From assembly GCA_016839815.1 (NCBI GenBank), contig JAEOTM010000204.1:1-64000 (forward strand): DNA of 64,000 bases, given 5' to 3'. The translations under genes and the position numbers were made by a program. The notes under the pieces are model-generated. The model saw only the letters and a program-made list of their open reading frames with translations, made no database searches and had not been told where the DNA came from. Source of the DNA: Candidatus Hodarchaeota archaeon (GTDB lineage: Archaea; Asgardarchaeota; Heimdallarchaeia; Hodarchaeales; Hodarchaeaceae). Within the stretch, counting starts at the first letter, position 1; each line of letters opens with the position of its first letter. Shown here one piece after another: positions 19,884-26,417 of this stretch.

Positions 19884-19974
19884 CCTACCAGACTAAAACT
19901 TATCACTTCTTGACTGTTTCACTCAAAAACGCATCAACATAAATAAATTGGTACTTAAACAAGTATAAAATGAG

Positions 19975-20075
19975 GGCCGATGCGGGGAATCGAACCCCGA
20001 CATGGTGGGCCACAACCACCGAGACTACCAATAGTCTATACACAAATATCTGTGTATATTTATCCTACATCGGCC
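19975..20075 (-). tRNA. tRNA-His (GTG) with intron in the D arm
   Basis: Read on the minus strand, acceptor arms GCCGATG and CATCGGC pair. An encoded G at position -1 faces discriminator C73, the tRNA-His identity pair. The anticodon arm is GGTGG-TTGTGGC-CCACC with anticodon GTG, and the T arm is CGGGG-TTCGATT-CCCCG. Between positions 10 and 11 about 28 extra bases interrupt the D stem, with an internal hairpin (ATACACA/TGTGTAT). Removing 28 of the 101 bases leaves a normal 73-base tRNA. CCA is not encoded. Confidence 0.9.
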
Positions 20076-20162: not shown

Positions 20163-20275
20163 CGTCGGGAGGGGGATTTGAACCCCCGAGTTCAAAGAAC
20201 ACCAACTTAGCAGGCTGGCTCCATTCTGGTCAAGTATGAACCTCATGGTTGAATACCAGGCTTGGATATCCCGAC
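20163..20275 (-). tRNA. tRNA-Ser (GCT) with D-loop intron
   Basis: Read on the minus strand, acceptor arms GTCGGGA and TCCCGAC pair, with discriminator G. The anticodon arm is CCAGC-CTGCTAA-GTTGG (anticodon GCT). A long variable arm with stem GTTC/GAAC and the T arm GGGGG-TTCAAAT-CCCCC follow. The D loop is expanded after CCTGGT by about 28 bases containing the pair AACC/GGTT. Without them the gene is about 85 bases, normal for a class II tRNA. Confidence 0.88.
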
Positions 20276-20965: not shown

Positions 20966-21937
20966 ATGGACTCTCAAACCATTCTTGACCTTTTTTGTGG
21001 AGCAGGGGGCTTTTCTCTGGGTTTCAGTTTAACTACCGACCGAAAAAAGGCAAGGTTGGCTATTGACAAGAATAACTGGGCTCTTGAAACTTACAAGAAG
21101 AACTTTCCATTCGCACGTACTCTCCAACGAGATATTACCCAGCTTCACTCCTTGGAACTCTTAAAACTATTAAATGTGACAGAACCAGATATCGTATTAG
21201 CAAGTCCTCCCTGTGAGGCGTTTTCCTCTGCGAACACGAATAGAAAATCTACTGATTACGATCGTTTATATTCTGACTCTACTGGGAGAAATATGCTACA
21301 TGCAATTCGTCTCATCATCGATCTTAATCCTACTTTTTTTTTCATTGAAAATGTCCAGCAAGTTGCCAATTATAATATGCAAAAGTATCTTCGCCGTGAG
21401 TTCTCGGATTCGACCTATTCAAAAATTTATTTCAATGTATTAGAGTCATTAAACTTTGGGGTACCAAGTGCGAGAAAAAGAGTCTTCATCTCGAACATCG
21501 AAATACCCTCAATTCCACGTGATAAAGAGTTTAGTAAAGTAAAAACTGCATTACAGGGATTAGAGGATACTGAGAGTTTTCATGAGTTTTTAAATCATGA
21601 AGAAGTTCCCCTTTCCCATAAAATTGCAAAAAAAATTCCAAGAACACCACCAAATGGAGCCTTGATTTATTTTCGGGGAAGTGGACGAAGAACGTTCCGA
21701 AACTATATCCGTCTGGATGCACAGTCATATGCACCTACGGTAATGGGGAAAAGTCGATTTATTCATCCACTAGAACATAGATTATGCACAGTCCGTGAAC
21801 ATGCCCGTTTAATGTCGTATCCAGACAATTTTGAGTTTATTGGTCCCCTTGTTGCCCAATATAATCAAGTTGGAGAAAGTGTCCCTCCCCTCATAAGTAA
21901 GGGAATTGCGAATTGCTTATCTCAAATAACTCAGTAG
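20966..21937 (+). CDS. DNA C5-cytosine methyltransferase
   Basis: It has the ordered C5-methyltransferase motifs: I (LDLFCGAGGFSLG, 8-20), IV with the catalytic cysteine Cys83 (ASPPCEAFS), VI (ENV, 128-130), VIII (ARKRVF), IX (VREHARLMSYPD) and X (QVGESVPP). At 323 residues the target-recognition region is short. Motif VIII has K instead of the common Q-x-R-x-R arrangement. No restriction endonuclease gene is adjacent. It sits in a housekeeping run between a SPOUT-like gene and rpoL, suggesting a solitary, possibly regulatory enzyme (inference). Confidence 0.9.
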   Translation: MDSQTILDLFCGAGGFSLGFSLTTDRKKARLAIDKNNWALETYKKNFPFARTLQRDITQLHSLELLKLLNVTEPDIVLASPPCEAFSSANTNRKSTDYDRLYSDSTGRNMLHAIRLIIDLNPTFFFIENVQQVANYNMQKYLRREFSDSTYSKIYFNVLESLNFGVPSARKRVFISNIEIPSIPRDKEFSKVKTALQGLEDTESFHEFLNHEEVPLSHKIAKKIPRTPPNGALIYFRGSGRRTFRNYIRLDAQSYAPTVMGKSRFIHPLEHRLCTVREHARLMSYPDNFEFIGPLVAQYNQVGESVPPLISKGIANCLSQITQ

Positions 21938-26128: not shown

Positions 26129-26234
26129 GGGCCTGTAGCTCAGTCTAGGATGTATATCGTCTTCATCCTCTGAAATGGTTAGAGCGTCCGGCTCATAACC
26201 GGATGGTTCGTGGGTTCAAATCCCCCCAGGCCCA
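26129..26234 (+). tRNA. tRNA-Met (CAT, elongator type) with D-loop intron
   Basis: Acceptor arms GGGCCTG and CAGGCCC pair, with discriminator A. The anticodon arm is TCCGG-CTCATAA-CCGGA. The T arm GTGGG-TTCAAAT-CCCCC has one T/C mismatch. The D stem GCTC/GAGC encloses about 40 bases instead of 10, so about 30 bases form an intron with hairpin AGGATG/CATCCT. The anticodon stem lacks the three G-C pairs of the initiator. A tRNA-Ile with modified CAT is possible, but the sequence looks like elongator Met. Confidence 0.85.
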
Positions 26235-26250: not shown

Positions 26251-26417
26251 GGCATCATAGCTCAGTTAGGATAAAGATTTGATCTTTATCTCTGAAGAGG
26301 TAGAGCGTTCGGCTGTTAATTAATATCTTTCATTCAGAAGGAGACACAGACACCGAGTGGTCGCAGGTTCAAGTGTTAAACACGTTTAGTCTTTAACTGA
26401 AAATCCTGCTGGTGCCG
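26251..26417 (+). tRNA. tRNA-Asn (GTT) with three introns
   Basis: Acceptor arms GGCATCA and TGGTGCC pair with one G-T, and the discriminator is G. The D stem GCTC/GAGC has about 31 inserted bases in the D loop, containing a 9-bp hairpin (GATAAAGAT/ATCTTTATC). The anticodon arm TTCGG-CTGTTA/A-CCGAG is interrupted after position 37 by 33 bases (26319-26351), the canonical site. The T arm GCAGG/CCTGC is interrupted inside the T loop by 30 bases (about 26373-26402) with GTTAAA/TTTAAC. Subtracting 94 intron bases leaves exactly 73, a standard tRNA. Confidence 0.88.

Follow-up and report, generated by a model that had tools for sequence, protein, structure and literature searches.

Three introns within a single tRNA gene are known from Pyrobaculum, in tRNA-Pro(UGG) of P. 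islandicum, where they lie at 25/26, the canonical 37/38 and 56/57, and in tRNA-Glu(UUC) of P. calidifontis (PMC4390854, PMC4090602). Among Asgard archaea, complete genomes of Atabeyarchaeia and Freyarchaeia carry introns in 92-95% of their tRNA genes and several in over half of them, often outside the anticodon loop, according to a 2024 report (PMC11291895); the extent of multi-intron tRNAs in Asgard archaea, which the preliminary description of our locus had left uncertain, is thus on record for these two classes. The nuclear tRNA-Ile(UAU) of the red alga Cyanidioschyzon merolae is interrupted in its D, anticodon and T arms alike, an arrangement that overall matches ours (PMC9602550), and intron presence or absence at one locus among close relatives has likewise been described for tRNA-Thr(GGU) of Caldiarchaeum subterraneum (PMC3293823). 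Three-intron tRNAs and multi-intron Asgard tRNAs are therefore already known, and the Hodarchaeales tRNA-Asn is a further example.

The gene considered here lies in a 64,000-nt stretch of DNA (the window) from a Candidatus Hodarchaeota archaeon (GCA_016839815.1, contig JAEOTM010000204.1) and was confirmed, at the level of sequence comparison, as a gene for tRNA-Asn(GUU) interrupted by three introns (26251-26417, +). It shares three introns per tRNA with Pyrobaculum but differs in the tRNA and the non-canonical sites concerned, and the Pyrobaculum hosts are hyperthermophilic Thermoproteales (PMC4390854, PMC4090602). Atabeyarchaeia and Freyarchaeia belong to other Asgard classes, and neither Hodarchaeales nor a genus-wide series is described in the available part of that report (PMC11291895). 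C. merolae, in contrast, is a eukaryote with its own endonuclease, and an independent origin is probable (PMC9602550), whereas the variation in Caldiarchaeum occurs within one population, and its authors linked it to the integration of mobile elements (PMC3293823). A literature search of partial coverage returned no paper on Hodarchaeales tRNA introns. To these cases the present locus contributes a series of presence and absence across a whole genus, at a single tRNA-Met/tRNA-Asn pair.

The tRNA-Asn gene combines the canonical 37/38 site with two non-canonical sites, in the D loop and at 59/60, in the order exon 1, 30 nt, exon 2, 33 nt, exon 3, 30 nt, exon 4 (Table 1). The Rfam tRNA model covers the gene from end to end, with a score above the gathering score of 29 bits. 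Removal of the introns, 93 nt in sum, leaves a standard 74-nt cloverleaf with a 9-nt D loop and the anticodon GTT (asparagine), whose arms are identical to those of naturally intronless orthologs. The preliminary description had proposed three introns within one tRNA-Asn gene, and the Rfam match, orthologs with empty sites and bulge-helix-bulge (BHB) geometry uphold it. Its exons adding up to an exact standard tRNA and its anticodon-loop (33 nt) and T-loop (about 30 nt) intron sizes stand; the D-loop intron is 30 rather than about 31 nt and the mature tRNA 74 rather than 73 nt, each noted figure lying within one base, and its intron total of 94 bases is replaced by 93 nt. ARAGORN, run on the window, made no call at this gene, as expected given its D-loop and T-loop introns.

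Table 1. Positions of the tRNA-Asn gene, its parts and neighbouring features in the window (+, forward strand; -, reverse strand).
Feature	Position	Strand	Evidence
tRNA-His, apparent ~29-nt intron	about 19974-20075	-	
tRNA-Ser(GCT)-like gene, apparent D-region intron	about 20171-20270	-	Rfam model, 15 bits
Presumed C5-cytosine DNA methyltransferase gene	20966-21937	+	motif
tRNA-Met(CAT), 16 nt upstream of tRNA-Asn	26129-26234	+	sequence and orthologs
tRNA-Met D-loop intron, 30 nt	about 26146-26175	+	sequence and orthologs
tRNA-Asn(GUU) pre-tRNA gene, 4 exons and 3 introns	26251-26417	+	Rfam RF00005, 31.8 bits; orthologs
Exon 1: acceptor 5' strand, D-stem 5' strand, D-loop start; GGCATCATAGCTCAGTT	26251-26267	+	identical in all orthologs; mature-sequence match
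D-loop intron, 30 nt	26268-26297	+	missing from G003, G005, G006, G007, G009 and G010:C105
Exon 2: remaining D arm, anticodon-stem 5' strand, anticodon GTT to position 37; AGGTAGAGCGTTCGGCTGTTA	26298-26318	+	BHB cut against orthologs; mature-sequence match
Anticodon-loop intron, canonical 37/38, 33 nt	26319-26351	+	missing from G003; pair counts
Exon 3: anticodon-stem 3' strand, variable loop, T-stem 5' strand, T loop to 59; ACCGAGTGGTCGCAGGTTCAAG	26352-26373	+	BHB cut against orthologs; mature-sequence match
T-loop intron at 59/60, 30 nt	26374-26403	+	missing from G005, G006 and G009; compensatory intron-stem changes
Exon 4: T-arm end, acceptor 3' strand, discriminator G73, CCA not encoded; TCCTGCTGGTGCCG	26404-26417	+	sequence; mature-sequence match

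A BLAST search with the whole pre-tRNA over 97 related genomes identified an orthologous tRNA-Asn at the corresponding locus of 11 congeneric genomes, among them Ca. Hodarchaeum mangrovi (G003), which belongs to the same genus as the window genome. The ribosomal protein L6 gene (rpl6) just upstream shares 82-86% identity with its counterparts in several Candidatus Hodarchaeota/Heimdallarchaeota bins. All three introns were present in four congeners at 87-90% identity and in two further ones at 75-77%. The D-loop intron alone was absent from G007 and from a second gene copy in bin G010 (contig C105), the D-loop and T-loop introns from G005, G006 and G009, and the D-loop and anticodon introns from G003, whose intronless anticodon arm has the loop CTGTTAA. 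Each of the three sites is thus filled in some congeners and precisely empty in at least one, and the boundaries were settled by these empty sites together with BHB-directed cuts that restore the intronless sequence. The D cut gives the identical mature arm GCTCAGTTAGGTAGAGC in every ortholog, and the T cut rebuilds the intronless arm GCAGGTTCAA[G/A]TCCTGC in every gene. Bin G010 holds two different tRNA-Asn genes, on contigs C28 and C105 (L037, L077), with three and two introns, respectively, and is most likely a mixed bin.

Each of the three junctions is able to form a BHB-type motif, a point on which the preliminary description had made its proposal depend, though the ViennaRNA minimum prefers somewhat different pairings. 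A 4-bp central helix (4/4 pairs, a few of them G-U) with 3-nt bulges was found at all three introns and in every intron-bearing ortholog tested. The T-loop junction is a complete canonical hBHBh' (GCAGG-TTCA-AG^T ... TGAA-AA^T-CCTGC), with the central helix TTCA/TGAA, a 5-bp exon stem and the 6-bp intron stem GTTAAA/TTTAAC. The anticodon junction is a relaxed BHB (central helix CTGT/ACAG, bulges TA^A and AC^A) with a full exon stem and an intron stem displaced by an internal loop, and the D-loop junction is a relaxed BHB (TCAG/CTGA, bulges TT^A and AG^A) with an adjoining intron stem of at least 9 bp. Over 12 sequences, the pairing that we propose holds in 92.8% of cells, and in 38-53% after the structure has been slid; nine pairs are changed on both sides (two in the anticodon stem, the remainder in intron stems) against 3.9 in shuffles. 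With shuffled introns, the central-helix position formed four Watson-Crick pairs in 2-3% of trials; a central helix with its adjoining intron stem arose in 0.07% (D) and 0.025% (T). The cleanly missing insertions in orthologs, the covariation of the intron hairpins and the shuffling together exclude a chance origin. Compared with the BHB folds as written, the minimum-energy folds of the isolated arms gained 2.8-4.5 kcal/mol in stability and lacked the exact central helices; since energy-only folding missed these helices, the motifs were judged by geometry, orthologs and covariation.

The D-loop junction has only one exon pair directly outside its central helix, and its ViennaRNA minimum-energy fold uses other pairs, which could mean that just two of the insertions are BHB introns, with the D-loop insert either excised along another or a less specific pathway or left in place as an expanded D loop. 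We consider this very unlikely, because the insert is precisely absent from five congeners and the second G010 copy, because the neighbouring tRNA-Met shows the identical TCAG/CTGA geometry, and because the BHB cut yields one mature D arm in 7/7 D-intron-bearing genes. These include G008, G004 and G002, whose inserts differ at their edges and in which alternative cuts would alter the mature D arm.

The gene appears to be the only tRNA-Asn of its genome. A second, uninterrupted tRNA-Asn(GTT), which the preliminary description had named as evidence that would count against it, was found neither by a search of the genome with the mature sequence, which matched the exons of this gene alone, nor by an anticodon-arm pattern, which occurs once in the window genome and once each in G005 and G009, two congeners assembled as single contigs; a loose 8-base anticodon pattern returned nothing beyond background. 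The window genome is a bin with an estimated completeness of 89.5% and contamination of 7.8%, so its single-copy status is strong but not final. This incompleteness is what a decayed pseudogene with three random insertions would call on, as a working copy elsewhere could be unassembled. Such decay is nevertheless highly improbable: the exons are near-invariant over 12 aligned genes (13 with G003) while the introns diverge, the insertions occupy corresponding positions and show both BHB geometry and covariation, and G005 and G009 likewise show just one tRNA-Asn. The estimated contamination, and the two different tRNA-Asn genes in the related bin G010, might instead suggest misassembly or an interrupted gene binned from another organism, an explanation to which we give almost no weight, as the gene sits inside a 113.6-kb contig and the order rps8-rpl6-tRNA-Met-tRNA-Asn recurs in independent assemblies of congeners. 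Pseudogene, assembly artefact and expanded D loop were each considered and rejected on orthologs, BHB geometry and contig context.

A tree of rps8 and rpl6 was too weak, and two flanking proteins were added; the resulting four-protein tree has one firm node bearing on intron loss, which joins G004 (three introns) and G005 (anticodon intron only) as sisters with a support of 98, the other nodes being weak. Loss in G005 is the simplest reading, since the introns of G004 resemble those of the window's clade. The presence/absence series suggests recurrent, independent turnover in the genus, in which introns would come and go independently of each other. No copies of the tRNA-Asn introns were found in other genes by whole-pre-tRNA BLAST over the 97 genomes, a search for which 30-nt introns lie at the edge of sensitivity.

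The tRNA-Met/tRNA-Asn pair is kept in 12 genomes with a spacing of 14-17 nt, and the recurrent gene order and this spacing make it likely that the two are co-transcribed. Their D-loop introns occupy the same site, agree in the central helix (TCAG/CTGA) and resemble each other at the ends, and an intron transfer between these neighbours is possible. In congeners, tRNA-Met carries D-loop and anticodon introns or none, in a presence/absence pattern unlike that of tRNA-Asn, and the introns therefore behave as separate units. About 19 of 30 other recovered tRNA genes of the window genome, read by eye, are interrupted, many in the D loop and some in the variable or T loop; since the model is poor at finding multi-intron genes, these are under-represented in the count. 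The tRNA-Asn genes of other Asgard families span the range between no intron (L121) and three insertions (L122). Within family f9, L113 and L122 have insertions in the anticodon loop, variable region and T loop, and L121 is intronless.

Elsewhere in the window, the apparent intron of tRNA-His lies between the acceptor stem and D stem, and ARAGORN calls this locus as an uninterrupted 73-nt gene, apparently with a wrong 5' end. The tRNA-His/tRNA-Ser cluster adjoins a gene that, judging by motif, we take to encode a C5-cytosine DNA methyltransferase. ARAGORN reported one tRNA in the window, where at least four are present, a practical warning that it undercounts tRNAs.

Two PF01974 genes were identified on contig C6 of the window genome; most of the 97 relatives also have two. 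The alpha subunit (L022) aligns over its full length with that of Aeropyrum pernix (E 2e-43), retains the active-site Tyr, His and Lys, and aligns gap-free across the 'Crenarchaea-specific loop' with a kept Lys at position 44 (counted from the alignment), whereas the second subunit is missing both the catalytic His and the loop. Loop and lysine are also kept in 11 alpha subunits from other Asgard genomes (L134-L145), so the 'Crenarchaea-specific loop' extends beyond Crenarchaeota. Efficient excision of relaxed-BHB introns is restricted to the (alpha-beta)2 and epsilon2 enzymes, and the loop lysine matters for this activity (reviewed in PMC6379350). On sequence grounds, the subunit pair matches the broad-specificity (alpha-beta)2 splicing endonuclease and is expected to assemble as a heterotetramer. 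A full-length RtcB is encoded on contig C206; a second RtcB-like gene, divergent or partial, lies at G000:C145:1816-2493 (L132, L133).

Collectively, we propose that tRNA-Asn(GUU) is transcribed together with the preceding tRNA-Met and that the pre-tRNA would fold into a BHB or relaxed BHB around each of the three insertions. The heteromeric (alpha-beta)2 endonuclease would cut two nucleotides past the central helix in each 3-nt bulge, freeing introns of 30, 33 and 30 nt, and RtcB would ligate the four exons into the standard 74-nt tRNA-Asn. We put the probability of this mechanism at roughly 94%.

Alignment with intronless relatives establishes a three-intron tRNA in Hodarchaeales, the order proposed as closest to eukaryotes in recent phylogenies. 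The genus-level series and the specificity loop common with Crenarchaeota are worth following: with all three sites both occupied and empty within one genus, intron gain, intron loss and endonuclease specificity become directly testable in an Asgard lineage. A broader scenario, which we regard as speculative and rather doubtful, is that non-canonical introns of Hodarchaeales actively turn over through spread between neighbouring tRNA genes and repeated precise loss. A widespread Asgard endonuclease with the 'Crenarchaea-specific' loop would make this turnover possible, so that the present state may mirror the endonuclease setting in the archaeon from which eukaryotes descend.
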